This document shows positions 24,552 through 58,987 of a stretch of 64,000 nt of DNA, in pieces. This DNA is from Obelidium mucronatum. Its lineage: Eukaryota; Chytridiomycota; Chytridiomycetes; Chytridiales; Chytriomycetaceae. The stretch lies in contig JAIVFH010000095.1 of assembly GCA_025765595.1 (NCBI GenBank), forward strand, positions 62,001 through 126,000. Direction: 5' to 3'. The stretch's first letter is position 1. Every line of letters begins with the position of its first letter. The notes under the pieces are model-generated. The model had not been told where the DNA came from. It saw nothing but the letters and a program-made list of their open reading frames with translations, and ran no database searches. The position numbers and the translations under genes are program-made.

Positions 24552-24560
24552 ATGTTGTTT
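24552..24560. repeat. 9-bp target-site duplication, left copy
   Basis: ATGTTGTTT is repeated exactly at 29568-29576, outside the right inverted repeat. The bases beyond the two copies differ, so the duplication is 9 bp and no more. Confidence 0.92.
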
Positions 24561-24962
24561 TAGGCTCAGTGTCAGCCTTGCTCTCGGAACTCTCAAAAAG
24601 AAAAAATAAAAAAAATTTCCATTTTCGAGCCCCAGCGAGAAGGCTGATCGACAATCTTCAAAACCCGCCAACTCCATTTTTTGTAGCGGAAGAACCAGCG
24701 GATGGATCTTCCTCAAATTCGGCACAGGTGTAGTTCAACTTATTTTATTAGTTTTGGCGGCCTTTTGGCCACGTGTTTCTGACAGTTTCCGTTTGAATAG
24801 TGGGGCCGCGTTTCAGACGTCTCCAGTGGACTCAAAACACGCTATATGCTCCTATGTCTTGTTTTTTTTTCAGTATATCCAATATATCAACATATTCTAT
24901 TACCGTTCGACACGTTGATTTGACCTGGAAATCATTTTTTGTTCTGTCCGGAAACACATCAA
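24561..24962 (+). repeat. Left terminal inverted repeat (402 bp)
   Basis: The inward part holds a T-run ending in CAG (about 24,867-24,876) and is open in one frame as far as the downstream gene. It probably contains the promoter and 5' leader of the DUF6589-like gene. It includes the small palindrome GGCCTTTTGGCC near 24,761. Confidence 0.93.
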
Positions 24963-24988
24963 CTCAACTGAAATCAACAGTTGCATTT

Positions 24989-27487
24989 ATGATACGCGAC
25001 AGCCGCGGGATGTTTCGGGGCAAGGCCGACCCACTGACTCAAGATCCAAGCGACGTCGGTACTGAGTCCGAAACTTCACCTGAACGTAGCCACAGCCGCA
25101 AAAAGGCATCAGTTGGACTGGAAACTCCTCTTTCCAATCAACGCCCAACAAGAAACACATCAAATCCATTTTCGACCCATCAAATGGGTTGCCCAATCCC
25201 GTCCATGAGTTTGGAAGAGAGATTGAACGATTCTCGGGATGCCAATTTAGGATCATCCTTCACAACTCATTTACGTGCAACTGGACAATCAGAGCATTCT
25301 GCAAAATTCCGTGCAGCAATGGCAGCGGTAAAATCGGCGGCTGCACAAAAAGCAAGCTTCAAATTTCCGGAAATTGAGGCTCGAGTGGCCATGTTGTCCA
25401 TTGATGACCAGCTGCAACTGTTGCAGAATCTCTTCAACGCTTTGCCTCTTCCAAAGCAACGCGATTTTCTTTTGAATAATGCATCTGCTCTCTCGAAAAT
25501 CGAAATCAAAGAATGCCTGAAGGTTGATATTGCTGCTCCAACCGTTGTTAACCGCTTGAATGTCAGTGTGCTTCTCGAATCTTGGGAGGCCAGTGCGCCC
25601 TTTATCTCGTCTCTCATCGGAATGCTTGTTGGACATGAAAAACCAAAGCTTATTCTCATCCTTGGAATCATTCTTTTTTCTGCATCTCAGAAGTACAATC
25701 TTCTGCAGTCGGAGATTGGTTTGATCTTGTACTCTAATGGCGCTTCGCAGAATCTCGTAAAACTAATGAATAGTATGGGTGTATCAGTTGGAAATGATAC
25801 AATTCTTGACCGGCTTGTTGACATGAAACAGCAAGCTCTCGATCTGATTCCAAAAACATTCCGTTCAAATAGTATTCTCTTGATCCACGACAATGTGGAG
25901 CGATACAACAAGACATACCAAAAGACTCAAGGAAACCAAAACCAGCTTGTGTCCCAAACGCTGCGTGGATTCATTCTTATCACACATGATCCAGCAATGC
26001 TACAACCCGCTGTGCCAATTAAGCCGCCATCACCATCCAATATTGTTGCCGACGCTTGCGAGTTGGCCTGGTATCATTCTCAGACTTTTAATGAATTGTA
26101 CAATCTCATCATCAAAGAATGCGCGGAGTTCAAAGACCTATCTTCAAGGCACAACCATCCTAACCGCCCCCATAGACCAACTGGTATCCTGCCTTTGCCC
26201 ATTATGGACGAACAAGAAATGACTACCAATGGATCCATTCGGATTGGGGAGCAATACACTAAAGACTTCAATATTCCGCACAACAAATGTATAAAAGTCC
26301 CTTTATTTGGAGATTTGGGGACAGTCACATCTGTTCGCTCTGCAATCAATGAGCGCAAACATGAGTGGGGTAGCTCTGATGTTGAGAAGCTGCAACACCT
26401 GATGCCCATCTATGGAGATTTTCATCTTGGAATGGCCGTTGATAAAGCCCAAGTCTCCGCCATGGGCTGGGAGCCATCCTTTCCAGGAACTATTGCTTGG
26501 TTTGCTCGAATTCAAAACAAGAATATCAATGCCAAGAAAGCGACATTCTACGAGATGCAAGATGTGCTAAACGGCTCCCTTAGCGCCTATGTTGTTGCAC
26601 TTGCGGACTCTATTACAGTGGATTACGCCAATGACCTGTCGGAACTGCAGTCAGGTAGTCAAGAAAAGCTGGACTACATTGTGAATACTCTCCTGCTTCA
26701 TGTTAACAGAGCAGTCTATCAATTGAAGCCGATTGTAAACAAAGGAAAGCGTGCTACGGAGTATTCTCCTTTGGAAACCCACCCTTTCCGCAACTACATG
26801 CTGCAATTTATACGCTTGCGACTTCAATCATTGGTCTTCTACGATTGCATTCGCTATGGTGACGGAGAAGGCGTGAATATTATGCATAAGCTGTTCTTGC
26901 CATTGCTCAAGAGACACTCCAAAAAATACGCACAGGGAACTGTGCGTCAGTTGTGGGATTTATCAATGATGACTCCTCGGGAACGAGGAATATGCGTACA
27001 AAACGCGTTTTTAAACTCAAAAGGACTTGTGAACTCCTTTTTTCCCAATGACTTGGGAATGGAGCATGAAGTCCTTGCCATGAAGTCAGTTCAATCCAAA
27101 GCAGGAAGTAACCGCAACTGGAATCATACCCAAACAATTTCTATGACTGCATCTCATGTCTGTAGCTTGACTAGCTCTCTTTTTGACCACTTGGACATTC
27201 CAAGAAGACGAGCATATCATCACGACGTGGATACAAAAAAAGACAAGGAGACCATGATGTTTGATGTCAAATCTCAGATGAATCGAGTACAAGGCTACTT
27301 CAAAGTGGGTGAATATGCCTTTAAACCTGTGCTGGAAGTGGGTTACAAGGAGTTAGTCAAGGATGGATATATTGCTCGGCAACTGAAGAACTTTTTTTGT
27401 GGATCTGGGGATGAGGATGATATTGAGGAGTTAGATGAACGGGTGTTTGACGAGGATGGTGTTGAAATTTTTGATTTAACGAAATAA
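24989..27487 (+). CDS. DUF6589-like protein, candidate transposase
   Basis: 832 residues from the first ATG beyond the inverted repeat; an upstream in-frame ATG exists, but that part is repeat sequence shared with the RecQ end. The first ~70 residues are charged and Ser/Thr-rich. The middle has LILGIILFSASQKYNLLQ, then IGLILYSNGASQNLVKLM, then LIHDNVERYNK (D301), then PLFGDLGTVTSVRSA (D442), then LMPIYGDFHLGMAVD. This order (scaffold helices, YDN/HDN, GD.LT, then P..G.FH...) is what I recall for fungal DUF6589 proteins. D301 and D442 could be two acids of an RNase H-like (DDE/D) site; the third acid is not assigned. No zinc finger or helicase motif is visible. Its position inside a TIR/TSD-bounded element makes it the likely transposase, by inference. 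It is convergent with the RecQ gene. Confidence 0.75.
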   Translation: MIRDSRGMFRGKADPLTQDPSDVGTESETSPERSHSRKKASVGLETPLSNQRPTRNTSNPFSTHQMGCPIPSMSLEERLNDSRDANLGSSFTTHLRATGQSEHSAKFRAAMAAVKSAAAQKASFKFPEIEARVAMLSIDDQLQLLQNLFNALPLPKQRDFLLNNASALSKIEIKECLKVDIAAPTVVNRLNVSVLLESWEASAPFISSLIGMLVGHEKPKLILILGIILFSASQKYNLLQSEIGLILYSNGASQNLVKLMNSMGVSVGNDTILDRLVDMKQQALDLIPKTFRSNSILLIHDNVERYNKTYQKTQGNQNQLVSQTLRGFILITHDPAMLQPAVPIKPPSPSNIVADACELAWYHSQTFNELYNLIIKECAEFKDLSSRHNHPNRPHRPTGILPLPIMDEQEMTTNGSIRIGEQYTKDFNIPHNKCIKVPLFGDLGTVTSVRSAINERKHEWGSSDVEKLQHLMPIYGDFHLGMAVDKAQVSAMGWEPSFPGTIAWFARIQNKNINAKKATFYEMQDVLNGSLSAYVVALADSITVDYANDLSELQSGSQEKLDYIVNTLLLHVNRAVYQLKPIVNKGKRATEYSPLETHPFRNYMLQFIRLRLQSLVFYDCIRYGDGEGVNIMHKLFLPLLKRHSKKYAQGTVRQLWDLSMMTPRERGICVQNAFLNSKGLVNSFFPNDLGMEHEVLAMKSVQSKAGSNRNWNHTQTISMTASHVCSLTSSLFDHLDIPRRRAYHHDVDTKKDKETMMFDVKSQMNRVQGYFKVGEYAFKPVLEVGYKELVKDGYIARQLKNFFCGSGDEDDIEELDERVFDEDGVEIFDLTK

Positions 27488-27510
27488 TAATTGCGTTACT
27501 TTTTATTTGG

Positions 27511-29166
27511 TCAATTCGGCATTTTCTTTAACTCCTTCAAATATGCAACAACAAGTGTTTTTGCTTCAATTTTCCATTTGTCTTCGAAACTATCAATCCA
27601 ATCAACAAATGAGTCGAGAACCACACCCTTCAGATCTCTGCAAATATCATCGATGACTTCCTGTGGGAATCTGCAAAGTCCCAACTCCCATGGTACTCCA
27701 ATCAAACAGCTTTCCCGCCATTCTGACAGCTCCGAAAACAGTTTGATAGATTCTTCAACTGTCAATCCACATTGCGAGCGAATGTGCCTTTTTTGTTTGA
27801 GCAATGGAGTGTTGGAAACATATGGAATCAAGCCAGACTGTGCTATAGTTGGTTTACGAGACTCACAAGCATCACAGCACCGGTCATTTGGTACCGGATC
27901 AAGCCCCTTAAAGTACCCCAAAAGAACCTTCCTTCGGCAAACTGGATTTGAAGTTGAAGGTGTTGATGCAAAGAGAGAGTACACCTCTCTGTTGGTGGCC
28001 TTACTCTCCTTCAACGCCACAGAATCGCTTTTCTTGTCTGATAAATCCTGGAGGGAGTGGAAGAAGAGACAACGACTGGGCAATCCATCCCTTCCAGCCC
28101 TCCCAAATTCCTGGGCAGCATTGCAAAATGATACTGGAGTCTTGTAATGAACAACAGTTCTAATTGAAGGATGGTCCAAGCCCTGGCCCAGCATTTGAGT
28201 GGTGCAAATAACCTTCAATTGATTAGGGTTTTCTCGAATCAGGCCTAGTACTGCGTTTTTGTGGGATTCCGAAGACAAGGCAGTTAAGTGAGTGAGCACG
28301 GGGGGGTAATTGGAGATGCCAGCTGAAAGGTACGTGTAAATCTTGTTCAGTGTGGTCTTTGAATCGCAGAAGAGGACCAGAACAAATACACTCGGATCAA
28401 AAGTTTTTGTTTCGAGAGCTATTTTGATGAATCCAAGATCCTTTTGCATCTCCTTCCGCTCCTGGACATCGTAAAACAAGTTTGGCCGATCCACACACCC
28501 AATAATTTCGACAAATCCTGGTCTCAATCTCAGTCGATTGCACATCTTGTTGTACATTGACTTTGGAACCGTTGCTGAAGCTGCAATGAAAGGAATATCC
28601 TTGAAATGAACACGAATGTTCTCCAGATTCAAATAGTCTTGTCTCCAAACATCTCCAGCGTTGGTCATTTCGTGCCATTCGTCTACTGCAATCGCGAACG
28701 CAAATTTTTGAATGACTTTGAGTATCTTCATGTCCTTTCCTCCAAGAATACTTGTTAAAAATTCCGGAGTCATCCACACAACATCAACATTTCCACTCTC
28801 AAGCAATTCCAGTGTTGAAGAATTCCCAATCTTGTTCATATCCAATGATCCAAAGGCTGCCGGTCGAAGGGGTATGTCTGATTTCTCCAAATTTGCCATT
28901 TGGTCAATCATGATTGCCAAGAGTGGAGATATAATGAACAAAACCGATTTTCGATCACCAGAATCCACCATTCTTTGCATGTGAGCCAGCAGAGACAGGT
29001 AAAAAGTGTACGTCTTGCCTCCGCCGGTCCTTTGAATCAATACGCAGTCTTTCCCATTCAACACAGCCTTGACGCAAGCAATTTGATAGTCACGAGGAGC
29101 ACTCTCGTAGTACTTGGCGGTTAGCAGGATGCAGACTTCCAAGATGGGATCATGTTCTAGTGACAT
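27511..29166 (-). CDS. RecQ-family superfamily 2 DNA helicase
   Basis: 551 residues, intronless, starting at MSLEHDPILEV; the ATG's first base is the last base of the inverted repeat. Motif 0-like RDYQIACVKAVLNGKD comes first, then I QRTGGGKT (46-52), Ia ISPLLAIMIDQM, Ib WMTPEFL, II DEWH (162-165, in place of DEAH), III AASATV, V TTQMLGQGLDHPSIRTVVHY and VI QEFGRAGRDG. A RecQ zinc-type cluster follows (CRRKVLLGYF then CCDAC). The helicase core therefore looks complete and active. There is no HRDC or WRN-like exonuclease; the last ~90 residues are helical and unassigned. Probable 3'-5' DNA unwinding during excision, repair or replication of the element (inference). Telomere-linked RecQ genes in fungi are an alternative source of such sequences, but here the gene is enclosed by the TIRs. 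Confidence 0.9.
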   Translation of the reverse strand: MSLEHDPILEVCILLTAKYYESAPRDYQIACVKAVLNGKDCVLIQRTGGGKTYTFYLSLLAHMQRMVDSGDRKSVLFIISPLLAIMIDQMANLEKSDIPLRPAAFGSLDMNKIGNSSTLELLESGNVDVVWMTPEFLTSILGGKDMKILKVIQKFAFAIAVDEWHEMTNAGDVWRQDYLNLENIRVHFKDIPFIAASATVPKSMYNKMCNRLRLRPGFVEIIGCVDRPNLFYDVQERKEMQKDLGFIKIALETKTFDPSVFVLVLFCDSKTTLNKIYTYLSAGISNYPPVLTHLTALSSESHKNAVLGLIRENPNQLKVICTTQMLGQGLDHPSIRTVVHYKTPVSFCNAAQEFGRAGRDGLPSRCLFFHSLQDLSDKKSDSVALKESKATNREVYSLFASTPSTSNPVCRRKVLLGYFKGLDPVPNDRCCDACESRKPTIAQSGLIPYVSNTPLLKQKRHIRSQCGLTVEESIKLFSELSEWRESCLIGVPWELGLCRFPQEVIDDICRDLKGVVLDSFVDWIDSFEDKWKIEAKTLVVAYLKELKKMPN

Positions 29167-29567
29167 TGATGTGTTTCCGGACAGAACAAAAAATGATTTC
29201 CAGGTCAAATCAACGTGTCGAACGGTAATAGAATATGTTGATATATTGGATATACTGAAAAAAAAACAAGACATAGGAGCATATAGCGTGTTTTGAGTCC
29301 ACTGGAGACGTCTGAAACGCGGCCCCACTATTCAAACGGAAACTGTCAGAAACACGTGGCCAAAAGGCCGCCAAAACTAATAAAATAAGTTGAACTACAC
29401 CTGTGCCGAATTTGAGGAAGATCCATCCGCTGGTTCTTCCGCTACAAAAAATGGAGTTGGCGGGTTTTGAAGATTGTCGATCAGCCTTCTCGCTGGGGCT
29501 CGAAAATGGAAATTTTTTTTATTTTTTCTTTTTGAGAGTTCCGAGAGCAAGGCTGACACTGAGCCTA
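29166..29567 (-). repeat. Right terminal inverted repeat (402 bp)
   Basis: Reverse complement of the left repeat. It ends exactly at the first base of the RecQ start codon, so the helicase gene takes its promoter and leader entirely from the repeat. Confidence 0.93.
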
Positions 29568-29576
29568 ATGTTGTTT
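29568..29576. repeat. 9-bp target-site duplication, right copy
   Basis: Second copy of ATGTTGTTT. An AATAAAAT polyadenylation-like signal follows about 30 bp further on (29,605), consistent with a split host 3' UTR. Confidence 0.92.
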
Positions 29577-34398: not shown

Positions 34399-37300
34399 TT
34401 AGCTTTGACTGGAGCACTTGAAATTGACTGTTTCCACAAAGGCAAGGATTGGAAGGGCAGACGGTTGTAGCGGCTGACCTCTGTCTGCAGGTCCCAAACA
34501 TGCCAGGACCTCACAGCTAGAGTTGCAGAAGCTTTCTTTGCTGTTTAGAGCATGGTTTGGGAGTGTGGGGAGACTATTGGAGCAGGCGGTCCAGAATGGT
34601 TTGGATACTGCTGTCCCATCGCACTCTGTTGACAAAACAGGAACCAGAGGAGCTACCGCCTCCAAACTCAGACAGTAGCTAGCCACACCCATTAGCTTTG
34701 ACTGGAGCACTTGAAATGGACTGTTTCCACAAAGGCAAGGATTGGAAGGGCAGACGGTTGTAGCGGCTGACCTCTGTCTGCAGGTCCCAAACATGCCAGG
34801 ACCTTACAGCTAGAGTTGCAGAAGCTTTCTTTGCTGTTTAGAGCATAGTTTGGGAGCGTGGGGAGACTATTGGAGCAGGCGGTCCAGAATGGTTTGGATA
34901 CCGCTGTCCCATCGCACTCTGTTGACAAAACAGGAACCAGAGGAGCTACCGCCTCCAAACTCAGACAGTAGCTAGCCACACCCATTAGCTTTGACTGGAG
35001 CACTTGAAATGGACTGTTTCCACAAAGGCAAGGATTGGAAGGGCAGACGGTTGTAGCGGCTGACCTCTGTCTGCAGGTCCCAAACATGCCAGGACCTTAC
35101 AGCTAGAGTTGCAGAAGCTTTCTTTGCTGTTTAGAGCATAGTTTGGGAGCGTGGGGAGACTATTGGAGCAGGCGGTCCAGAATGGTTTGGATACCTGCTG
35201 TCCCATCGCACTCTGTTGACAAAACAGGAACCAGAGGAGCTACCGCCTCCAAACTCAGACAGTAGCTAGCCACACCCATTAGCTTTGACTGGAGCACTTG
35301 AAATGGACTGTTTCCACAAAGGCAAGGATTGCAACAGAGGTCGGTTGTAGCGGCTGACCTCTGTCTGCAGGTCCCAAACATGCCAGGACCTTACAGCTAG
35401 AGTTGCAGAAGCTTTCTTTGCTGTTTAGAGCATAGTTTGGGAGCGTGGGGAGACTATTGGAGCAGGCGGTCCAGAATGGTTTGGATATCGCTGTCCCATC
35501 GCACTCTGTTGACAAAACAGGAACCAGAGGAGCTACCGCCTCCAAACTCAGACAGTAGCTAGCCACACCCATTAGCTTTGACTGGAGCACTTGAAATGGA
35601 CTGTTTCCACAAAGGCAAGGATTGCAAGCAGAGGTCGGTTGTAGCGGCTGACCTCTGTCTGCAGGTCCCAAACATGCCAGGACCTTACAGCTAGAGTTGC
35701 AGAAGCTTTCTTTGCTGTTTAGAGCATAGTTTGGGAGCGTGGGGAGACTATTGGAGCAGGCGGTCCAGAATGGTTTGGATACTGCTGTCCCATCGCACTC
35801 TGTTGACAAAACAGGAACCAGAGGAGCTACCGCCTCCAAACTCAGACAGTAGCTAGCCACACCCATTAGCTTTGACTGGAGCACTTGAAATGGACTGTTT
35901 CCACAAAGGCAAGGATTGCAACAGAGGTCGGTTGTAGCGGCTGACCTCTGTCTGCAGGTCCCAAACATGCCAGGACCTTACAGCTAGAGTTGCAGAAGCT
36001 TTCTTTGCTGTTTAGAGCATAGTTTGGGAGCGTGGGGAGACTATTGGAGCAGGCGGTCCAGAATGGTTTGGATACTGCTGTCCCATCGCACTCTGTTGAC
36101 AAAACAGGAACCAGAGGAGCTACCGCCTCCAAACTCAGACAGTAGCTAGCCACACCCATTAGCTTTGACTGGAGCACTTGAAATGGACTGTTTCCACAAA
36201 GGCAAGGATTGCAACAGAGGTCGGTTGTAGCGGCTGACCTCTGTCTGCAGGTCCCAAACATGCCAGGACCTCACAGCTAGAGTTGCAGAAGCTTTCTTTG
36301 CTGTTTAGAGCATAGTTTGGGAGCGTGGGGAGACTATTGGAGCAGGCGGTCCAGAATGGTTTGGATACCGCTGTCCCATCGCACTCTGTTGACAAAACAG
36401 GAACCAGAGGAGCTACCGCCTCCAAACTCAGACAGTAGCTAGCCACACCCATTAGCTTTGACTGGAGCACTTGAAATGGACTGTTTCCACAAAGGCAAGG
36501 ATTGCAAGGCAGAGGTCGGTTGTAGCGGCTGACCTCTGTCTGCAGGTCCCAAACATGCCAGGACCTCACAGCTAGAGTTGCAGAAGCTTTCTTTGCTGTT
36601 TAGAGCATAGTTTGGGAGCGTGGGGAGACTATTGGAGCAGGCGGTCCAGAATGGTTTGGATACTGCTGTCCCATCGCACTCTGTTGACAAAACAGGAACC
36701 AGAGGAGCTACCGCCTCCAAACTCAGACAGTAGCTAGCCACACCCATTAGCTTTGACTGGAGCACTTGAAATGGACTGTTTCCACAAAGGCAAGGATTGG
36801 CAAGGCAGAGGTCGGTTGTAGCGGCTGACCTCTGTCTGCAGGTCCCAAACATGCCAGGACCTCACAGCTAGAGTTGCAGAAGCTTTCTTTGCTGTTTAGA
36901 GCATAGTTTGGGAGCGTGGGGAGACTATTGGAGCAGGCGGTCCAGAATGGTTTGGATACTGCTGTCCCATCGCACTCTGTTGACAAAACAGGAACCAGAG
37001 GAGCTACCGCCTCCAAACTCAGACAGTAGCTAGCCACACCCATTAGCTTTGACTGGAGCACTTGAAATGGACTGTTTCCACAAAGGCAAGGATTGGAAGG
37101 CAGAGTCGGTTGTAGCGGCTGACCTCTGTCTGCAGGTCCCAAACATGCCAGGACCTCACAGCTAGAGTTGCAGAAGCTTTCTTTGCTGTTTAGAGCATAG
37201 TTTGGGAGCGTGGGGAGACTATTGGAGCAGGCGGTCCAGAATGGTTTGGATACTGCTGTCCCATCGCACTCTGTTGACAAAACAGGAACCAGAGGAGCTA

Positions 37301-40300
37301 CCGCCTCCAAACTCAGACAGTAGCTAGCCACACCCATTAGCTTTGACTGGAGCACTTGAAATGGACTGTTTCCACAAAGGCAAGGATTGCAAGGCAGAGG
37401 TCGGTTGTAGCGGCTGACCTCTGTCTGCAGGTCCCAAACATGCCAGGACCTCACAGCTAGAGTTGCAGAAGCTTTCTTTGCTGTTTAGAGCATAGTTTGG
37501 GAGCGTGGGGAGACTATTGGAGCAGGCGGTCCAGAATGGTTTGGATACTGCTGTCCCATCGCACTCTGTTGACAAAACAGGAACCAGAGGAGCTACCGCC
37601 TCCAAACTCAGACAGTAGCTAGCCACACCCATTAGCTTTGACTGGAGCACTTGAAATGGACTGTTTCCACAAAGGCAAGGATTGCAACAGAGGTCGGTTG
37701 TAGCGGCTGACCTCTGTCTGCAGGTCCCAAACATGCCAGGACCTCACAGCTAGAGTTGCAGAAGCTTTCTTTGCTGTTTAGAGCATAGTTTGGGAGCGTG
37801 GGGAGACTATTGGAGCAGGCGGTCCAGAATGGTTTGGATACTGCTGTCCCATCGCACTCTGTTGACAAAACAGGAACCAGAGGAGCTACCGCCTCCAAAC
37901 TCAGACAGTAGCTAGCCACACCCATTAGCTTTGACTGGAGCACTTGAAATGGACTGTTTCCACAAAGGCAAGGATTGGAAGGGCAGACGGTTGTAGCGGC
38001 TGACCTCTGTCTGCAGGTCCCAAACATGCCAGGACCTTACAGCTAGAGTTGCAGAAGCTTTCTTTGCTGTTTAGAGCATAGTTTGGGAGCGTGGGGAGAC
38101 TATTGGAGCAGGCGGTCCAGAATGGTTTGGATACTGCTGTCCCATCGCACTCTGTTGACAAAACAGGAACCAGAGGAGCTACCGCCTCCAAAATCAGACA
38201 GTAGCTAGCCACACCCATTAGCTTTGACTGGAGCACTTGAAATGGACTGTTTCCACAAAGGCAAGGATTGCAACAGAGGTCGGTTGTAGCGGCTGACCTC
38301 TGTCTGCAGGTCCCAAACATGCCAGGACCTTACAGCTAGAGTTGCAGAAGCTTTCTTTGCTGTTTAGAGCATAGTTTGGGAGCGTGGGGAGACTATTGGA
38401 GCAGGTCGGTCCAGAATGGTTTGGATACCGCTGTCCCATCGCACTCTGTTGACAAAACAGGAACCAGAGGAGCTACCGCCTCCAAACTCAGACAGTAGCT
38501 AGCCACACCCATTAGCTTTGACTGGAGCACTTGAAATGGACTGTTTCCACAAAGGCAAGGATTGGAAGGGCAGACGGTTGTAGCGGCTGACCTCTGTCTG
38601 CAGGTCCCAAACATGCCAGGACCTCACAGCTAGAGTTGCAGAAGCTTTTTTGCTGTTTAGAGCATAGTTTGGGAGCGTGGGGAGACTATTGGAGCAGGCG
38701 GTCCAGAATGGTTTGGATACTGCTGTCCCATCGCACTCTGTTGACAAAACAGGAACCAGAGGAGCTACCGCCTCCAAACTCAGACAGTAGCTAGCCACAC
38801 CCATTAGCTTTGACTGGAGCACTTGAAATGGACTGTTTCCACAAAGGCAAGGATTGGAAGGGCAGACGGTTGTAGCGGCTGACCTCTGTCTGCAGGTCCC
38901 AAACATGCCAGGACCTTACAGCTAGAGTTGCAGAAGCTTTCTTTGCTGTTTAGAGCATAGTTTGGGAGCGTGGGGAGACTATTGGAGCAGGCGGTCCAGA
39001 ATGGTTTGGATACCTGCTGTCCCATCGCACTCTGTTGACAAAACAGGAACCAGAGGAGCTACCGCCTCCAAACTCAGACAGTAGCTAGCCACACCCATTA
39101 GCTTTGACTGGAGCACTTGAAATGGACTGTTTCCACAAGGCAAGGATTGCAGGCAAGGATTGCAGAGGTCGGTTGTAGCGGCTGACCTCTGTCTGCAGGT
39201 CCCAAACATGCCAGGACCTTACAGCTAGAGTTGCAGAAGCTTTCTTTGCTGTTTAGAGCATAGTTTGGGAGCGTGGGGAGACTATTGGAGCAGGCGGTCC
39301 AGAATGGTTTGGATACCTGCTGTCCCATCGCACTCTGTTGACAAAACAGGAACCAGAGGAGCTACCGCCTCCAAACTCAGACAGTAGCTAGCCACACCCA
39401 TTAGCTTTGACTGGAGCACTTGAAATGGACTGTTTCCACAAAGGCAAGGATTGGAAGGGCAGACGGTTGTAGCGGCTGACCTCTGTCTGCAGGTCCCAAA
39501 CATGCCAGGACCTCACAGCTAGAGTTGCAGAAGCTTTCTTTGCTGTTTAGAGCATAGTTTGGGAGCGTGGGGAGACTATTGGAGCAGGCGGTCCAGAATG
39601 GTTTGGATACTGCTGTCCCATCGCACTCTGTTGACAAAACAGGAACCAGAGGAGCTACCGCCTCCAAACTCAGACAGTAGCTAGCCACACCCATTAGCTT
39701 TGACTGGAGCACTTGAAATGGACTGTTTCCACAAAGGCAAGGATTGCAACAGAGGTCGGTTGTAGCGGCTGACCTCTGTCTGCAGGTCCCAAACATGCCA
39801 GGACCTTACAGCTAGAGTTGCAGAAGCTTTCTTTGCTGTTTAGAGCATAGTTTGGGAGCGTGGGGAGACTATTGGAGCAGGCGGTCCAGAATGGTTTGGA
39901 TACTGCTGTCCCATCGCACTCTGTTGACAAAACAGGAACCAGAGGAGCTACCGCCTCCAAACTCAGACAGTAGCTAGCCACACCCATTAGCTTTGACTGG
40001 AGCACTTGAAATGGACTGTTTCCACAAAGGCAAGGATTGGAAGGGCAGACGGTTGTAGCGGCTGACCTCTGTCTGCAGGTCCCAAACATGCCAGGACCTT
40101 CACAGCTAGAGTTGCAGAAGCTTTCTTTGCTGTTTAGAGCATAGTTTGGGAGCGTGGGGAGACTATTGGAGCAGGCGGTCCAGAATGGTTTGGATACGCT
40201 GTCCCATCGCACTCTGTTGACAAAACAGGAACCAGAGGAGCTACCGCCTCCAAAATCAGACAGTAGCTAGCCACACCCATTAGCTTTGACTGGAGCACTT

Positions 40301-43300
40301 GAAATGGACTGTTTCCACAAAGGCAAGGATTGGAAGGGCAGACGGTTGTAGCGGCTGACCTCTGTCTGCAGGTCCCAAACATGCCAGGACCTTCACAGCT
40401 AGAGTTGCAGAAGCTTTCTTTGCTGTTTAGAGCATAGTTTGGGAGCGTGGGGAGACTATTGGAGCAGGCGGTCCAGAATGGTTTGGATACTGCTGTCCCA
40501 TCGCACTCTGTTGACAAAACAGGAACCAGAGGAGCTACCGCCTCCAAACTCAGACAGTAGCTAGCCACACCCATTAGCTTTGACTGGAGCACTTGAAATG
40601 GACTGTTTCCACAAAGGCAAGGATTGGAAGGGCAGAGTCGGTTGTAGCGGCTGACCTCTGTCTGCAGGTCCCAAACATGCCAGGACCTTACAGCTAGAGT
40701 TGCAGAAGCTTTCTTTGCTGTTTAGAGCATAGTTTGGGAGCGTGGGGAGACTATTGGAGCAGGCGGTCCAGAATGGTTTGGATACTGCTGTCCCATCGCA
40801 CTCTGTTGACAAAACAGGAACCAGAGGAGCTACCGCCTCCAAAATCAGACAGTAGCTAGCCACACCCATTAGCTTTGACTGGAGCACTTGAAATGGACTG
40901 TTTCCACAAAGGCAAGGATTGGAAGGGCAGACGGTTGTAGCGGCTGACCTCTGTCTGCAGGTCCCAAACATGCCAGGACCTCACAGCTAGAGTTGCAGAA
41001 GCTTTCTTTGCTGTTTAGAGCATAGTTTGGGAGCGTGGGGAGACTATTGGAGCAGGCGGTCCAGAATGGTTTGGATACCGCTGTCCCATCGCACTCTGTT
41101 GACAAAACAGGAACCAGAGGAGCTACCGCCTCCAAACTCAGACAGTAGCTAGCCACACCCATTAGCTTTGACTGGAGCACTTGAAATGGACTGTTTCCAC
41201 AAAGGCAAGGATTGCAAGGCAGAGGTCGGTTGTAGCGGCTGACCTCTGTCTGCAGGTCCCAAACATGCCAGGACCTCACAGCTAGAGTTGCAGAAGCTTT
41301 CTTTGCTGTTTAGAGCATAGTTTGGGAGCGTGGGGAGACTATTGGAGCAGGCGGTCCAGAATGGTTTGGATACTGCTGTCCCATCGCACTCTGTTGACAA
41401 AACAGGAACCAGAGGAGCTACCGCCTCCAAACTCAGACAGTAGCTAGCCACACCCATTAGCTTTGACTGGAGCACTTGAAATGGACTGTTTCCACAAAGG
41501 CAAGGATTGGAAGGGCAGACGGTTGTAGCGGCTGACCTCTGTCTGCAGGTCCCAAACATGCCAGGACCTCACAGCTAGAGTTGCAGAAGCTTTCTTTGCT
41601 GTTTAGAGCATAGTTTGGGAGCGTGGGGAGACTATTGGAGCAGGCGGTCCAGAATGGTTTGGATACCTGCTGTCCCATCGCACTCTGTTGCTACCGCCTC
41701 CAAACTCAGACAGTAGCTAGCCACACCCATTAGCTTTGACTGGAGCACTTGAAATGGACTGTTTCCACAAAGGCAAGGATTGGCAAGGCAGAGGTCGGTT
41801 GTAGCGGCTGACCTCTGTCTGCAGGTCCCAAACATGCCAGGACCTCACAGCTAGAGTTGCAGAAGCTTTCTTTGCTGTTTAGAGCATAGTTTGGGAGCGT
41901 GGGGAGACTATTGGAGCAGGCGGTCCAGAATGGTTTGGATACCTGCTGTCCCATCGCACTCTGTTGACAAAACAGGAACCAGAGGAGCTACCGCCTCCAA
42001 ACTCAGACAGTAGCTAGCCACACCCATTAGCTTTGACTGGAGCACTTGAAATGGACTGTTTCCACAAAGGCAAGGATTGGAAGGCAGAGTCGGTTGTAGC
42101 GGCTGACCTCTGTCTGCAGGTCCCAAACATGCCAGGACCTCACAGCTAGAGTTGCAGAAGCTTTCTTTGCTGTTTAGAGCATAGTTTGGGAGCGTGGGGA
42201 GACTATTGGAGCAGGCGGTCCAGAATGGTTTGGATACTGCTGTCCCATCGCACTCTGTTGACAAAACAGGAACCAGAGGAGCTACCGCCTCCAAACTCAG
42301 ACAGTAGCTAGCCACACCCATTAGCTTTGACTGGAGCACTTGAAATGGACTGTTTCCACAAAGGCAAGGATTGCAAGGCAGAGGTCGGTTGTAGCGGCTG
42401 ACCTCTGTCTGCAGGTCCCAAACATGCCAGGACCTCACAGCTAGAGTTGCAGAAGCTTTCTTTGCTGTTTAGAGCATAGTTTGGGAGCGTGGGGAGACTA
42501 TTGGAGCAGGCGGTCCAGAATGGTTTGGATACCTGCTGTCCCATCGCACTCTGTTGACAAAACAGGAACCAGAGGAGCTACCGCCTCCAAACTCAGACAG
42601 TAGCTAGCCACACCCATTAGCTTTGACTGGAGCACTTGAAATGGACTGTTTCCACAAAGGCAAGGATTGGAAGGGCAGACGGTTTGTAGCGGCTGACCTC
42701 TGTCTGCAGGTCCCAAACATGCCAGGACCTCACAGCTAGAGTTGCAGAAGCTTTCTTTGCTGTTTAGAGCATAGTTTGGGAGCGTGGGGAGACTATTGGA
42801 GCAGGCGGTCCAGAATGGTTTGGATACTGCTGTCCCATCGCACTCTGTTGACAAAACAGGAACCAGAGGAGCTACCGCCTCCAAACTCAGACAGTAGCTA
42901 GCCACACCCATTAGCTTTGACTGGAGCACTTGAAATGGACTGTTTCCACAAAGGCAAGGATTGCAAGGCAGAGTCGGTTGTAGCGGCTGACCTCTGTCTG
43001 CAGGTCCCAAACATGCCAGGACCTCACAGCTAGAGTTGCAGAAGCTTTCTTTGCTGTTTAGAGCATAGTTTGGGAGCGTGGGGAGACTATTGGAGCAGGC
43101 GGTCCAGAATGGTTTGGATACTGCTGTCCCATCGCACTCTGTTGACAAAACAGGAACCAGAGGAGCTACCGCCTCCAAACTCAGACAGTAGCTAGCCACA
43201 CCCATTAGCTTTGACTGGAGCACTTGAAATGGACTGTTTCCACAAAGGCAAGGATTGGCAAGGCAGAGGTCGGTTGTAGCGGCTGACCTCTGTCTGCAGG

Positions 43301-46300
43301 TCCCAAACATGCCAGGACCTCACAGCTAGAGTTGCAGAAGCTTTCTTTGCTGTTTAGAGCATAGTTTGGGAGCGTGGGGAGACTATTGGAGCAGGCGGTC
43401 CAGAATGGTTTGGATACTCGCTGTCCCATCGCACTCTGTTGACAAAACAGGAACCAGAGGAGCTACCGCCTCCAAACTCAGACAGTAGCTAGCCACACCC
43501 ATTAGCTTTGACTGGAGCACTTGAAATGGACTGTTTCCACAAAGGCAAGGATTGGAAGGGCAGACGGTTGTAGCGGCTGACCTCTGTCTGCAGGTCCCAA
43601 ACATGCCAGGACCTTACAGCTAGAGTTGCAGAAGCTTTCTTTGCTGTTTAGAGCATAGTTTGGGAGCGTGGGGAGACTATTGGAGCAGGCGGTCCAGAAT
43701 GGTTTGGATACTGCTGTCCCATCGCACTCTGTTGACAAAACAGGAACCAGAGGAGCTACCGCCTCCAAAATCAGACAGTAGCTAGCCACACCCATTAGCT
43801 TTGACTGGAGCACTTGAAATGGACTGTTTCCACAAAGGCAAGGATTGGAAGGGCAGACGGTTGTAGCGGCTGACCTCTGTCTGCAGGTCCCAAACATGCC
43901 AGGACCTTACAGCTAGAGTTGCAGAAGCTTTCTTTGCTGTTTAGAGCATAGTTTGGGAGCGTGGGGAGACTATTGGAGCAGGCTGGTCCAGAATGGTTTG
44001 GATACCGCTGTCCCATCGCACTCTGTTGACAAAACAGGAACCAGAGGAGCTACCGCCTCCAAAATCAGACAGTAGCTAGCCACACCCATTAGCTTTGACT
44101 GGAGCACTTGAAATGGACTGTTTCCACAAAGGCAAGGATTGGAAGGGCAGACGGTTGTAGCGGCTGACCTCTGTCTGCAGGTCCCAAACATGCCAGGACC
44201 TTACAGCTAGAGTTGCAGAAGCTTTCTTTGCTGTTTAGAGCATAGTTTGGGAGCGTGGGGAGACTATTGGAGCAGGTGGTCCAGAATGGTTTGGATACCG
44301 CTGTCCCATCGCACTCTGTTGACAAAACAGGAACCAGAGGAGCTACCGCCTCCAAACTCAGACAGTAGCTAGCCACACCCATTAGCTTTGACTGGAGCAC
44401 TTGAAATTGACTGTTTCCACAAAGGCAAGGATTGGAAGGGCAGACGGTTGTAGCGGCTGACCTCTGTCTGCAGGTCCCAAACATGCCAGGACCTTACAGC
44501 TAGAGTTGCAGAAGCTTTCTTTGCTGTTTAGAGCATAGTTTGGGAGCGTGGGGAGACTATTGGAGCAGGTGGTCCAGAATGGTTTGGATACCGCTGTCCC
44601 ATCGCACTCTGTTGACAAAACAGGAACCAGAGGAGCTACCGCCTCCAAACTCAGACAGTAGCTAGCCACACCCATTAGCTTTGACTGGAGCACTTGAAAT
44701 GGACTGTTTCCACAAAGGCAAGGATTGCAACAGAGGTCGGTTGTAGCGGCTGACCTCTGTCTGCAGGTCCCAAACATGCCAGGACCTTACAGCTAGAGTT
44801 GCAGAAGCTTTCTTTGCTGTTTAGAGCATAGTTTGGGAGCGTGGGGAGACTATTGGAGCAGGTGGTCCAGAATGGTTTGGATACCGCTGTCCCATCGCAC
44901 TCTGTTGACAAAACAGGAACCAGAGGAGCTACCGCCTCCAAACTCAGACAGTAGCTAGCCACACCCATTAGCTTTGACTGGAGCACTTGAAATGGACTGT
45001 TTCCACAAAGGCAAGGATTGCAAGCAGAGGTCGGTTGTAGCGGCTGACCTCTGTCTGCAGGTCCCAAACATGCCAGGACCTTACAGCTAGAGTTGCAGAA
45101 GCTTTCTTTGCTGTTTAGAGCATAGTTTGGGAGCGTGGGGAGACTATTGGAGCAGGCGGTCCAGAATGGTTTGGATACTGCTGTCCCATCGCACTCTGTT
45201 GACAAAACAGGAACCAGAGGAGCTACCGCCTCCAAAATCAGACAGTAGCTAGCCACACCCATTAGCTTTGACTGGAGCACTTGAAATGGACTGTTTCCAC
45301 AAAGGCAAGGATTGGAAGGCAGAGGTCGGTTGTAGCGGCTGACCTCTGTCTGCAGGTCCCAAACATGCCAGGACCTCACAGCTAGAGTTGCAGAAGCTTT
45401 CTTTGCTGTTTAGAGCATAGTTTGGGAGCGTGGGGAGACTATTGGAGCAGGCGGTCCAGAATGGTTTGGATACCTGCTGTCCCATCGCACTCTGTTGACA
45501 AAACAGGAACCAGAGGAGCTACCGCCTCCAAACTCAGACAGTAGCTAGCCACACCCATTAGCTTTGACTGGAGCACTTGAAATGGACTGTTTCCACAAAG
45601 GCAAGGATTGGAAGGCAGAGGTCGGTTGTAGCGGCTGACCTCTGTCTGCAGGTCCCAAACATGCCAGGACCTTACAGCTAGAGTTGCAGAAGCTTTCTTT
45701 GCTGTTTAGAGCATAGTTTGGGAGCGTGGGGAGACTATTGGAGCAGGCGGTCCAGAATGGTTTGGATACTGCTGTCCCATCGCACTCTGTTGACAAAACA
45801 GGAACCAGAGGAGCTACCGCCTCCAAACTCAGACAGTAGCTAGCCACACCCATTAGCTTTGACTGGAGCACTTGAAATGGACTGTTTCCACAAAGGCAAG
45901 GATTGCAAGAGGTGCAGGTTGTAGCGGCTGACCTCTGTCTGCAGGTCCCAAACATGCCAGGACCTCACAGCTAGAGTTGCAGAAGCTTTCTTTGCTGTTT
46001 AGAGCATAGTTTGGGAGCGTGGGGAGACTATTGGAGCAGGCGGTCCAGAATGGTTTGGATACCGCTGTCCCATCGCACTCTGTTGACAAAACAGGAACCA
46101 GAGGAGCTACCGCCTCCAAACTCAGACAGTAGCTAGCCACACCCATTAGCTTTGACTGGAGCACTTGAAATGGACTGTTTCCACAAAGGCAAGGATTGGA
46201 AGGCAGAGCGGTTGTAGCGGCTGACCTCTGTCTGCAGGTCCCAAACATGCCAGGACCTCACAGCTAGAGTTGCAGAAGCTTTCTTTGCTGTTTAGAGCAT

Positions 46301-49300
46301 AGTTTGGGAGCGTGGGGAGACTATTGGAGCAGGCGGTCCAGAATGGTTTGGATACTGCTGTCCCATCGCACTCTGTTGACAAAACAGGAACCAGAGGAGC
46401 TACCGCCTCCAAACTCAGACAGTAGCTAGCCACACCCATTAGCTTTGACTGGAGCACTTGAAATGGACTGTTTCCACAAAGGCAAGGATTGCAACAGAGG
46501 TCGGTTGTAGCGGCTGACCTCTGTCTGCAGGTCCCAAACATGCCAGGACCTCACAGCTAGAGTTGCAGAAGCTTTCTTTGCTGTTTAGAGCATAGTTTGG
46601 GAGCGTGGGGAGACTATTGGAGCAGGCGGTCCAGAATGGTTTGGATACCGCTGTCCCATCGCACTCTGTTGACAAAACAGGAACCAGAGGAGCTACCGCC
46701 TCCAAACTCAGACAGTAGCTAGCCACACCCATTAGCTTTGACTGGAGCACTTGAAATGGACTGTTTCCACAAAGGCAAGGATTGCAAGGCAGAGGTCGGT
46801 TGTAGCGGCTGACCTCTGTCTGCAGGTCCCAAACATGCCAGGACCTCACAGCTAGAGTTGCAGAAGCTTTCTTTGCTGTTTAGAGCATAGTTTGGGAGCG
46901 TGGGGAGACTATTGGAGCAGGCGGTCCAGAATGGTTTGGATACCGCTGTCCCATCGCACTCTGTTGACAAAACAGGAACCAGAGGAGCTACCGCCTCCAA
47001 ACTCAGACAGTAGCTAGCCACACCCATTAGCTTTGACTGGAGCACTTGAAATGGACTGTTTCCACAAAGGCAAGGATTGGAAGGGCAGACGGTTGTAGCG
47101 GCTGACCTCTGTCTGCAGGTCCCAAACATGCCAGGACCTCACAGCTAGAGTTGCAGAAGCTTTCTTTGCTGTTTAGAGCATAGTTTGGGAGCGTGGGGAG
47201 ACTATTGGAGCAGGCGGTCCAGAATGGTTTGGATACCGCTGTCCCATCGCACTCTGTTGACAAAACAGGAACCAGAGGAGCTACCGCCTCCAAACTCAGA
47301 CAGTAGCTAGCCACACCCATTAGCTTTGACTGGAGCACTTGAAATGGACTGTTTCCACAAAGGCAAGGATTGGAAGGGCAGACGGTTGTAGCGGCTGACC
47401 TCTGTCTGCAGGTCCCAAACATGCCAGGACCTTACAGCTAGAGTTGCAGAAGCTTTCTTTGCTGTTTAGAGCATAGTTTGGGAGCGTGGGGAGACTATTG
47501 GAGCAGGTGGTCCAGAATGGTTTGGATACCGCTGTCCCATCGCACTCTGTTGACAAAACAGGAACCAGAGGAGCTACCGCCTCCAAACTCAGACAGTAGC
47601 TAGCCACACCCATTAGCTTTGACTGGAGCACTTGAAATGGACTGTTTCCACAAAGGCAAGGATTGGAAGGGCAGACGGTTGTAGCGGCTGACCTCTGTCT
47701 GCAGGTCCCAAACATGCCAGGACCTCACAGCTAGAGTTGCAGAAGCTTTCTTTGCTGTTTAGAGCATAGTTTGGGAGCGTGGGGAGACTATTGGAGCAGG
47801 CGGTCCAGAATGGTTTGGATACCGCTGTCCCATCGCACTCTGTTGACAAAACAGGAACCAGAGGAGCTACCGCCTCCAAACTCAGACAGTAGCTAGCCAC
47901 ACCCATTAGCTTTGACTGGAGCACTTGAAATGGACTGTTTCCACAAAGGCAAGGATTGCAAGGCAGAGTCGGTTGTAGCGGCTGACCTCTGTCTGCAGGT
48001 CCCAAACATGCCAGGACCTCACAGCTAGAGTTGCAGAAGCTTTCTTTGCTGTTTAGAGCATAGTTTGGGAGCGTGGGGAGACTATTGGAGCAGGCGGTCC
48101 AGAATGGTTTGGATACCGCTGTCCCATCGCACTCTGTTGACAAAACAGGAACCAGAGGAGCTACCGCCTCCAAACTCAGACAGTAGCTAGCCACACCCAT
48201 TAGCTTTGACTGGAGCACTTGAAATGGACTGTTTCCACAAAGGCAAGGATTGCAAGGCAGAGGTCGGTTGTAGCGGCTGACCTCTGTCTGCAGGTCCCAA
48301 ACATGCCAGGACCTCACAGCTAGAGTTGCAGAAGCTTTCTTTGCTGTTTAGAGCATAGTTTGGGAGCGTGGGGAGACTATTGGAGCAGGTGGTCCAGAAT
48401 GGTTTGGATACCGCTGTCCCATCGCACTCTGTTGACAAAACAGGAACCAGAGGAGCTACCGCCTCCAAACTCAGACAGTAGCTAGCCACACCCATTAGCT
48501 TTGACTGGAGCACTTGAAATGGACTGTTTCCACAAAGGCAAGGATTGGAAGGGCAGACGGTTGTAGCGGCTGACCTCTGTCTGCAGGTCCCAAACATGCC
48601 AGGACCTCACAGCTAGAGTTGCAGAAGCTTTCTTTGCTGTTTAGAGCATAGTTTGGGAGCGTGGGGAGACTATTGGAGCAGGCGGTCCAGAATGGTTTGG
48701 ATACCGCTGTCCCATCGCACTCTGTTGACAAAACAGGAACCAGAGGAGCTACCGCCTCCAAACTCAGACAGTAGCTAGCCACACCCATTAGCTTTGACTG
48801 GAGCACTTGAAATGGACTGTTTCCACAAAGGCAAGGATTGCAAGGCAGAGGTCGGTTGTAGCGGCTGACCTCTGTCTGCAGGTCCCAAACATGCCAGGAC
48901 CTCACAGCTAGAGTTGCAGAAGCTTTCTTTGCTGTTTAGAGCATAGTTTGGGAGCGTGGGGAGACTATTGGAGCAGGCGGTCCAGAATGGTTTGGATACC
49001 GCTGTCCCATCGCACTCTGTTGACAAAACAGGAACCAGAGGAGCTACCGCCTCCAAACTCAGACAGTAGCTAGCCACACCCATTAGCTTTGACTGGAGCA
49101 CTTGAAATGGACTGTTTCCACAAAGGCAAGGATTGGAAGGGCAGACGGTTGTAGCGGCTGACCTCTGTCTGCAGGTCCCAAACATGCCAGGACCTCACAG
49201 CTAGAGTTGCAGAAGCTTTCTTTGCTGTTTAGAGCATAGTTTGGGAGCGTGGGGAGACTATTGGAGCAGGCGGTCCAGAATGGTTTGGATACCGCTGTCC

Positions 49301-51492
49301 CATCGCACTCTGTTGACAAAACAGGAACCAGAGGAGCTACCGCCTCCAAACTCAGACAGTAGCTAGCCACACCCATTAGCTTTGACTGGAGCACTTGAAA
49401 TGGACTGTTTCCACAAAGGCAAGGATTGCAAGCAGAGGTCGGTTGTAGCGGCTGACCTCTGTCTGCAGGTCCCAAACATGCCAGGACCTCACAGCTAGAG
49501 TTGCAGAAGCTTTCTTTGCTGTTTAGAGCATAGTTTGGGAGCGTGGGGAGACTATTGGAGCAGGCGGTCCAGAATGGTTTGGATACTCGCTGTCCCATCG
49601 CACTCTGTTGACAAAACAGGAACCAGAGGAGCTACCGCCTCCAAACTCAGACAGTAGCTAGCCACACCCATTAGCTTTGACTGGAGCACTTGAAATGGAC
49701 TGTTTCCACAAAGGCAAGGATTGGAAGGGCAGACGGTTGTAGCGGCTGACCTCTGTCTGCAGGTCCCAAACATGCCAGGACCTCACAGCTAGAGTTGCAG
49801 AAGCTTTCTTTGCTGTTTAGAGCATAGTTTGGGAGCGTGGGGAGACTATTGGAGCAGGCGGTCCAGAATGGTTTGGATACTGCTGTCCCATCGCACTCTG
49901 TTGACAAAACAGGAACCAGAGGAGCTACCGCCTCCAAACTCAGACAGTAGCTAGCCACACCCATTAGCTTTGACTGGAGCACTTGAAATGGACTGTTTCC
50001 ACAAAGGCAAGGATTGCAAGGCAGAGGTCGGTTGTAGCGGCTGACCTCTGTCTGCAGGTCCCAAACATGCCAGGACCTCACAGCTAGAGTTGCAGAAGCT
50101 TTCTTTGCTGTTTAGAGCATAGTTTGGGAGCGTGGGGAGACTATTGGAGCAGGCGGTCCAGAATGGTTTGGATACTGCTGTCCCATCGCACTCTGTTGAC
50201 AAAACAGGAACCAGAGGAGCTACCGCCTCCAAACTCAGACAGTAGCTAGCCACACCCATTAGCTTTGACTGGAGCACTTGAAATGGACTGTTTCCACAAA
50301 GGCAAGGATTGGAAGGGCAGAGCGGTTGTAGCGGCTGACCTCTGTCTGCAGGTCCCAAACATGCCAGGACCTCACAGCTAGAGTTGCAGAAGCTTTCTTT
50401 GCTGTTTAGAGCATAGTTTGGGAGCGTGGGGAGACTATTGGAGCAGGCGGTCCAGAATGGTTTGGATACTGCTGTCCCATCGCACTCTGTTGACAAAACA
50501 GGAACCAGAGGAGCTACCGCCTCCAAACTCAGACAGTAGCTAGCCACACCCATTAGCTTTGACTGGAGCACTTGAAATGGACTGTTTCCACAAAGGCAAG
50601 GATTGGCAAGGCAGAGTCGGTTGTAGCGGCTGACCTCTGTCTGCAGGTCCCAAACATGCCAGGACCTCACAGCTAGAGTTGCAGAAGCTTTCTTTGCTGT
50701 TTAGAGCATAGTTTGGGAGCGTGGGGAGACTATTGGAGCAGGCGGTCCAGAATGGTTTGGATACTGCTGTCCCATCGCACTCTGTTGACAAAACAGGAAC
50801 CAGAGGAGCTACCGCCTCCAAACTCAGACAGTAGCTAGCCACACCCATTAGCTTTGACTGGAGCACTTGAAATGGACTGTTTCCACAAAGGCAAGGATTG
50901 GAAGGGCAGACGGTTGTAGCGGCTGACCTCTGTCTGCAGGTCCCAAACATGCCAGGACCTTACAGCTAGAGTTGCAGAAGCTTTCTTTGCTGTTTAGAGC
51001 ATAGTTTGGGAGCGTGGGGAGACTATTGGAGCAGGCGGTCCAGAATGGTTTGGATACCGCTGTCCCATCGCACTCTGTTGACAAAACAGGAACCAGAGGA
51101 GCTACCGCCTCCAAACTCAGACAGTAGCTAGCCACACCCATTAGCTTTGACTGGAGCACTTGAAATGGACTGTTTCCACAAAGGCAAGGATTGGAAGGGC
51201 AGACGGTTGTAGCGGCTGACCTCTGTCTGCAGGTCCCAAACATGCCAGGACCTTACAGCTAGAGTTGCAGAAGCTTTTTTTGCTGTTTAGAGCATAGTTT
51301 GGGAGCGTGGGGAGACTATTGGAGCAGGCGGTCCAGAATGGTTTGGATACCGCTGTCCCATCGCACTCTGTTGACAAAACAGGAACCAGAGGAGCTACCG
51401 CCTCCAAACTCAGACAGTAGCTAGCCACACCCATTAGCTTTGACTGGAGCACTTGAAAATAACTGTTTCCACGAAGGCAAGGATTGCAACAG
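34399..51492. repeat. Satellite array: about 58 tandem copies of a ~293-bp unit
   Basis: The unit runs from AGCTTTGACTGGAGCACTTG through GGTTGTAGCGGCTGACC to AGCTAGCCACACCCATT and is over 95% conserved, in one orientation throughout. Period is 291-296 bp. Variation is concentrated at four spots: after GGCAAGGATTG, at GACC(TT/TC)ACAGC, at GCAGG(C/T)GGTCC and at GGATAC(C/T)GCTG. One unit near 41,690 lacks 21 bp, and one near 39,150 has a 13-bp duplication. Minus-strand frames of 73-270 codons cross units only when length is a multiple of three; they have no recognised domain. The first unit starts after unrelated sequence. The array stops inside the first variable spot at 51,492. Confidence 0.97.
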
Positions 51493-57800: not shown

Positions 57801-58976
57801 GGTTTCATTGTATATTGCCCAGTTGTCTATGGCATGATACATTGAGGTTTTCCCTCCCTCTACCTTCCCAAAGGCCGGTCTCTCTGCTCCTTCCAGGTTC
57901 AGGTGTCTAATTTCTTTTATGTTAATGTTGTATTGGAACATTCTGCTGAGTATGGAGGCAAGATGGTGTGTCCCTTTTCCTACTTTGGCTGGGAAGGGTG
58001 TCTCCAGGGGACAGTGCGGCAGTGCAAGCTCTTCTTGTAGATTCGCTAGTCGTATCTTGGTTATTCTTCCAATCAGGTCATCGGAGTTCACATGTATCAT
58101 TAGGTTGCTGACACTGTCAACCATGAATTGGTCATTCCAGTCAATTAGGTTATATATTTGTGAGTGTTTTAGCTGGGAGGTTGGCAGACTAATTGGCTGT
58201 CTTGCTTTTTGTTTTACTAGTCTCAGGATTGGGGTAAACCATTTCTCCACTTCAGAGGAGGACACTGGTACTGTCTGCCATTTGTATCTTATTTGTTGGA
58301 GTAGCACAGTGTTTATGATCATGATTGCACTTTTGTCAGTGATTCTTTTGTCCTTCAGGACGTTTACCATGGCTTGAATTTGGGCGCGTATCTCTTCTAT
58401 CGCTCTTGCGTTTGAGTTGTCTGCTGAGAAGTAGTTTCCAAGTATTCTCTCACTTTGTTCTTTTTCTAGGACTTCTACCTCACTGTGGTCTCCCCAACTC
58501 AGCGTTGCCTTGGGGTTTGTGGGGTTGATGGCAATCACTTTAACTTTTTTTGTGTTAGATTTTATAGTATTTCCTTCTTGAAATTCATATAGTAGAGCGG
58601 CTTGTTTTTCCAGCTCTTTCCAGTTACCAGCGGCAGTGCTGGTATCGTCTACATATGCCAGTGCAGCTATGTCTTCTGATAGCGTTTCTGTTTCCCACGT
58701 TTTCCCATTGAATTTGGTTTTAACTTTTGCTTTTAGTGTTATTCCCTTGGTCTCTTGGTCAATCACGTATAGGATTGTGTCCCAGAATATTCTCCATTCA
58801 ATAGGCGCGAGGACTGACCCCTGTTGGATCATTGTTCCAATTTGTATTTGTTCGGTTTCCCCAACTGCCGTTCTTATTTTTGCTGTGAGTCTTTGTTGCG
58901 TGTTGAATTTCCATGCTGAGTAGCAATACGGGATCTTAACTAGAGACATACGCTCAGTCACTTTGCTTCTTCGCAG
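54885..58976 (-). pseudogene. LINE pol, 3' part: RT C-half, RNase H, zinc knuckle
   Basis: The frame is open to 59,012; the first dozen residues come from inserted sequence. RT motif B is IQQGSVLAPIEWRIF and motif C is LAYVDDTS. RNase H has IIYTDGSLKT, an NPEHMAMNAAL helix, NIDNMAVIT and HVKGHSGEVGNEQAD, so all four acidic positions appear present. CCRVCLTDEEETNEHLWNCP is the usual post-RNase-H knuckle of such elements. A further Cys/His group (ICQLCEGEW..GSHEC) and a Lys/Glu-rich tail extend the protein unusually far. It lacks motif A and the fingers, so it cannot make a functional RT alone. Confidence 0.88.
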
Positions 58977-58987
58977 TGCAGGTTGCA
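58938..58987 (+). repeat. 50-bp inverted repeat A, partner at 61,610-61,659
   Basis: The reverse complement of 61,610-61,659 matches with no mismatch found. About 40 bp of it is LINE RT coding sequence (LRRSKVTERMSLV). The distal copy is therefore an inverted duplicate of host LINE sequence placed near the other breakpoint. Confidence 0.9.

Follow-up and report, generated by a model that had tools for sequence, protein, structure and literature searches.

A recently active, helicase-encoding DNA transposon of Obelidium mucronatum, very probably of the AcademH lineage, with a DUF6589 protein as its predicted transposase

The stretch of DNA analysed here, referred to as the window, comprises 64,000 nucleotides of Obelidium mucronatum (assembly GCA_025765595.1, contig JAIVFH010000095.1, positions 62,001 to 126,000 of the forward strand). 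It contains a 5007-bp element (window positions 24561..29567; contig C95 of the 48.3-Mb, 694-contig assembly) that has recently been active. The element is very probably an autonomous, helicase-encoding DNA transposon of the AcademH lineage, with its DUF6589 protein as the transposase. AcademH is said to be a lineage of the Academ superfamily.

The element is bounded by terminal inverted repeats (TIRs) of 402 bp (24561..24962 on the plus strand, with the tip TAGGCTCAGTGTCAGCC, and the same sequence at 29166..29567 on the minus strand), which are 100% identical. The inverted-repeat search returned a single pair of 403 nt at 100% identity; its outermost base belongs to the flanks, which agree there by chance, giving a TIR length of 402 bp. 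The 9-bp target-site duplication (TSD) ATGTTGTTT lies directly outside both ends (24552..24560 and 29568..29576). Two convergent open reading frames (ORFs), both intact and separated by 23 bp from stop to stop, occupy the interior: the DUF6589 gene, encoding a predicted DDE transposase of 832 aa (24989..27487, plus strand), and a gene for a RecQ-like superfamily 2 helicase of 551 aa (27511..29166, minus strand, start codon assumed). No third gene was recognised within the element. A preliminary description, made from the sequence without database searches, had reported these TIRs, the TSD and the spacing of the ORFs, and all are confirmed to the base.

A search of the assembly with the TIR gave 34 matches, of which 26 form 13 pairs at full-length spacing and 8 lie on relics. 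The 17-bp tip has 47 exact matches in the genome, a count that includes other families and relics, versus 0 for the reversed control. Ten of the 13 full-length copies, including the window copy, are identical; two more differ from the window copy by 1 base, and the remaining one (L021) by 19 substitutions and two 1-bp gaps. Neither ORF is interrupted in any full-length copy.

Exact 9-bp TSDs of differing sequence flank 11 of the 13 copies. The joined flanks of these 11 sites were matched against the assembly, and an empty homologous counterpart (allele or paralogue) was found for nine of them; none turned up in the assembly for the window copy or for the copy on contig C16. The empty loci number 11, two sites having two each, and align over 649-925 columns at 90.6-97.9% identity with a single target. 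This target is exact in 8 of the 11 loci, corresponding to six of the nine sites; it differs by one base at L038 and L042 and by a small indel at L045. The other full-length copies and the empty sites that the preliminary description proposed to look for are both present in this genome. The element is mobile and inserts precisely, with a 9-bp duplication. The two copies without a TSD have flanks that lead to different contigs: for L011 the left flank matches C406 and the right flank C119 and C522, while for L017 the left flank matches C21 and the right flank only itself. Consequently, we read them as products of recombination between copies or of a misjoin, and not of another mode of insertion.

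In a Pfam scan of the 832-aa protein, DUF6589 (PF20231) was the sole match at E ≤ 1 (E 1.8e-36; 126 bits against a cut-off of 27), covering residues 370-744. No known transposase domain was detected by sequence, either in Pfam or in profile searches against PDB chains: the PDB sequence search with the transposase returned nothing below E 0.45, and the profile search nothing up to E 10. Homologue searches found none among 8000 candidates each, and viral-contig scans, a genome-contig scan and a phage tblastn search gained nothing.

A structure was also predicted for the core. The model is of moderate confidence (predicted local distance difference test, pLDDT, of 63), and its best eight structural matches are DDE transposases, with the P element, ISCth4, Hermes and Transib as the top likenesses. 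Three acidic residues conserved in all six families of the element described below are predicted to be placed like a DDE catalytic triad: D301 (codon 25889..25891, plus strand) on the first strand of the predicted core, D442 (26312..26314, plus strand) directly after strand 437-441, and E692 (27062..27064, plus strand) on helix 684-700. D625, D688 and E783 are likewise conserved across families. The first of the three predicted catalytic acids lies outside the stretch matched by PF20231, and a helical insertion is predicted between the second and the third. The preliminary description had proposed that DUF6589 is an RNase H-fold transposase with D301 and D442 as catalytic residues. Both residues are present as claimed, and the model predicts an RNase H-like DDE transposase core in which E692 would be the third acid. 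This predicted function, together with the third acid, is new for DUF6589.

The helicase matches the Pfam families DEAD and Helicase_C above cut-off, and among PDB entries it is closest to BLM and RecQ. Its best NCBIfam match is the RecQ family, at 178 bits and below the cut-off of 219.8; the RecQ_Zn_bind match is also below cut-off. The motifs TGGGKT, DEWH and GRAGRDG noted earlier are all present in the window helicase. Motifs I, II and VI occur in all six families, motif VI being degenerate in family 6, and zinc-binding cysteines of the form CRR...CCDxC occur in five of six, the sixth being a piece. The proposal that the element supplies a RecQ-like helicase of its own is supported at the sequence level.

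Five further families (2-6) were found in the same genome, four of them with well-defined ends. Family 2 (contig C5) consists of two 5241-bp copies one base apart, with the TSDs AACTGAAGT and ATTCTTAAT; family 3 (C66) carries a 17-bp end in duplicate and lacks a clean TSD; families 4 (C93) and 5 (C180) have the TSDs TAACTCTAT and ACAAAAACC, respectively. For family 6 (C5, 186-196 kb) only a 44-bp inverted match could be found, and the left end is unrecognisable. Overall, exact 9-bp TSDs flank 15 of 18 two-ended elements, distributed over five families. Families 1 (that of the window copy), 2 and 4 have an uninterrupted DUF6589 frame; it is broken in families 3 (possibly by an intron), 5 and 6. 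The DUF6589 family was found in none of the 14 control genomes.

The DUF6589 gene is paired with a convergent helicase gene in all six families. PF20231 has 22 matches in the genome, 21 of them over cut-off, and a convergent helicase adjoins 20; the remaining two correspond to the two arms of a single truncated inverted duplicate on C182. The linkage of DUF6589 with RecQ suggested by the window copy therefore recurs within this genome. Pairwise identity between families (15 pairs) ranges from 18.1 to 35.3% for DUF6589 and from 23.7 to 36.7% for the helicase, with pieces used for DUF6589 of families 3, 5 and 6 and for the helicase of family 5. The two sets of identities are correlated (r = 0.86, for 15 mutually non-independent pairs). 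This parallel divergence argues for joint descent of the two genes, and not for repeated capture of a helicase.

Several degraded loci were also recorded. Contig C179 holds an additional relic with both genes. Locus L022 (G000:C182:33500-43400) is a 4.1-kb inverted duplication (99.5%) holding two head-to-head truncated relics of the element. In L024 (G000:C128), a relic TIR is interrupted by a 1144-bp insertion (1442-2585) with ~416-bp imperfect inverted ends (CACCCGG...CCGGGTG) and a ~8-bp duplication; by eye it resembles a separate hAT-like element. At its end, the family-6 DUF6589 piece (L034, 4477-6102, minus strand) shows a weak likeness to a PHD finger (15.7 bits, below cut-off).

The first base of the helicase ATG assumed in the window copy is also the innermost base of the right TIR, and in families 1 and 3 the likely start codon lies at, or a few bases from, the inner edge of the TIR. 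This arrangement suggests that each arm probably serves as the promoter of one gene; judging from its position, the left TIR probably provides the promoter and 5' leader of the DUF6589 gene. A TIR-encoded N-terminus common to both proteins was considered and dropped. In family 1 the TIR is crossed by an open frame that continues into each ORF; in family 2 the open frame of the DUF6589 gene, unlike that of the helicase gene, starts only in the last bases of the TIR, so that such an N-terminus is not conserved.

Within the TIRs, an inverted dyad begins 12 nt from the tip (16 nt in the C180 element), with 30-60 nt separating its arms. In the window copy, the left outer arm TCAGCCTT occupies 24572..24579 (plus strand, nt 12-19 from the tip) and the left inner arm AAGGCTGA 24640..24647 (plus strand, nt 80-87). 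As the TIRs are identical, the right inner and outer arms are mirrored at 29481..29488 and 29549..29556 (minus strand). Stems were compared with those of 500 shuffles. For the family 1 dyad TCAGCCTT, which is weak when taken alone, 22 of 500 shuffles were equally good, against 0 for family 2 (TCAGCCTTTCTC), 6 for family 3 (TCAGCCCTT), 1 for the right end of family 4 (CCAGCCTCTCC) and 0 for family 5 (CAGACTGCTCTT). The search did not recover the dyad from the left arm of family 4, where the best stem is another one (21 of 500 shuffles equally good), and at the right end of family 6 it is visible by eye only. The argument for the dyad thus draws on families 2, 4 (right arm) and 5 and, to a lesser degree, on family 3. 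The dyad sequences differ between families while their pairing is kept, which suggests a likely function for the dyad, whether as a pair of binding sites or as a hairpin. Such a subterminal dyad, apparently kept by compensating changes in most families, is a new feature.

The two TIR arms of a copy are also alike: no difference was found in 12 of the 13 full-length copies and one difference in L013. In L021 (G000:C15), the most divergent full-length copy, two substitutions and a 1-bp deletion set the arms apart from those of the other copies, and all three are present in both arms. From this one copy, it seems that the arms are equalised, through conversion or in the course of transposition. 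One column differs between the arms in families 2 and 3 and two in family 5, which agrees with homogenisation. The matched changes in both arms of a copy are likewise newly described. Extra tips bound small elements without matching TSDs, of 144 bp at C376 and of 79 bp at C219 and C558; the first (L049, 717-860, G000:C376) is a miniature element with family-2-like tips and 36 bp of exact inverted ends.

These features can be combined into a possible course of transposition. DUF6589 subunits would bind and pair the ends through the tip and the subterminal dyad, and the DDE enzyme (D301, D442, E692) may then excise the element by cut-and-paste, by analogy with P and hAT elements. The same enzyme would join the element to the target strands with a 9-bp stagger, and gap repair by the host would then leave a duplication of 9 bp. 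The RecQ-like helicase, encoded from the opposite end, travels with the transposase and may assist transposition, most likely by unwinding the ends or by resolving the strand-transfer and gap-repair intermediate.

Other explanations were weighed against this reading. That the helicase is a passenger, or modulates the host (for example in replication or silencing) without taking part in the chemistry, is possible but rather improbable. RecQ helicases of fungi also occur at telomeres outside transposons, according to the available part of PMC4522978; however, all 13 full-length copies and the five divergent families have kept the gene, in convergent orientation throughout, and its divergence tracks that of DUF6589. 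It is very unlikely that the DUF6589 protein is an accessory factor, for example a DNA-binding protein, with the transposase supplied by another factor. The lack of a sequence-recognisable transposase domain and the moderate confidence of the model would fit such a role, but besides the helicase gene no further gene was recognised, DDE transposases head the structural matches of the model, and conserved acids occupy the predicted triad positions. An immobile segmental duplication with chance inverted ends could explain the missing TSDs of L011 and L017 and the older piece inside the C182 duplication. It has next to no probability given that the flanks differ and the TSDs are exact, and the empty sites refute it.

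The preliminary description had also suggested a distinct superfamily. An undescribed superfamily, with a DUF6589 DDE enzyme not homologous to that of Academ and a convergent likeness to AcademH, is unlikely. In its favour, DUF6589 is named nowhere in the literature searched, where PF20231 appeared only in an unrelated physics paper; the likeness to Academ is known from descriptions and not from Academ sequences; and KolobokH, in the accessible text of PMC9587614, shows a second transposase superfamily acquiring a RecQ helicase. Against it, TSD length, helicase and fungal host match the published AcademH descriptions, as far as these were available. There is similarly little chance of a separate DUF6589 superfamily whose P-element/hAT-like DDE enzyme forms an obligate pair with a dedicated RecQ helicase and acts with it on ends that fold into a compensated dyad or hairpin, with unwinding and copying during transposition equalising the arms.

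Chitin synthase has 57 matches in the host genome, split into neighbouring pieces, and these indicate a fungal host. Matches to this family also occur in 4 of the 14 control genomes, so the evidence lies in how strong and numerous the host matches are and in this split. IFT46 was found in the host genome (233 bits) and in none of the 14 controls, suggesting a flagellated lineage; tektin was not found in the host genome. The occurrence of a helicase-carrying element in a host with a ciliary gene is new. Elsewhere in the window, a 17-kb satellite array (34399-51486) consists of ~58 copies of a 293-bp unit with 97% matches. Pieces of a retrotransposon of the non-LTR (non-long-terminal-repeat) type (54888-59012 and 62406-63788, minus strand) include an RNase H domain accompanied by a reverse transcriptase match that falls short of the cut-off, as well as an endonuclease-reverse transcriptase match close to the cut-off. 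A GH18 chitinase (1310-3773, minus strand) adjoins a long acidic Ser/Glu/Pro tract with 21- to 96-bp tandem repeats.

Among known systems, Mutator (MuDR) elements resemble the present element in their long TIRs and TSDs of about 9 bp; they are not known to carry a RecQ helicase, and they were ruled out by the absence of a MULE transposase domain match in the Pfam scan of the 832-aa protein. P elements and hAT elements are not known to carry a helicase and have 8-bp TSDs, and their likeness (Hermes for hAT) is one of predicted fold, with no sequence similarity by Pfam or by profile against PDB chains. Kolobok elements duplicate TTAA, unlike the varying 9-bp TSDs found here, and KolobokH was ruled out on this ground. 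It does share with the present element the combination of a fungal DNA transposon and a RecQ-like helicase: according to the available part of PMC9587614, KolobokH in fungi carries RecQ, and a rhodophyte Kolobok has RecQ on the complementary strand.

Helicase-encoding transposons are thus known already, as the accessible descriptions of AcademH and KolobokH make clear, and the anatomy of the element fits AcademH. In the part of Kojima 2023 (PMC10045372) that was available, AcademH has 9 or 10-bp TSDs and AcademX 3 or 4 bp, a difference tied to helicase versus nuclease. The accessible parts of PMC12730594, PMC3985635 and PMC11075540 contain nothing on AcademH or a DUF6589 transposase, and a literature search with the word chytrid added gave no mention of it among the matches listed. 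The present analysis gives an unannotated Pfam family a testable function, as a predicted DDE transposase, and provides an apparently live set of copies for testing the role of a transposon-borne helicase, with empty sites and precise 9-bp duplications as the read-out. On present evidence these elements are not a new superfamily; they are very probably of AcademH type, which probably explains DUF6589. They share with AcademH, as described in the published text available, an encoded helicase, a 9-bp TSD and a fungal host. They differ in that AcademH is reported there as low-copy in Basidiomycota, Ascomycota and Mucoromycota (PMC10799480), whereas the present host has the ciliary gene IFT46.
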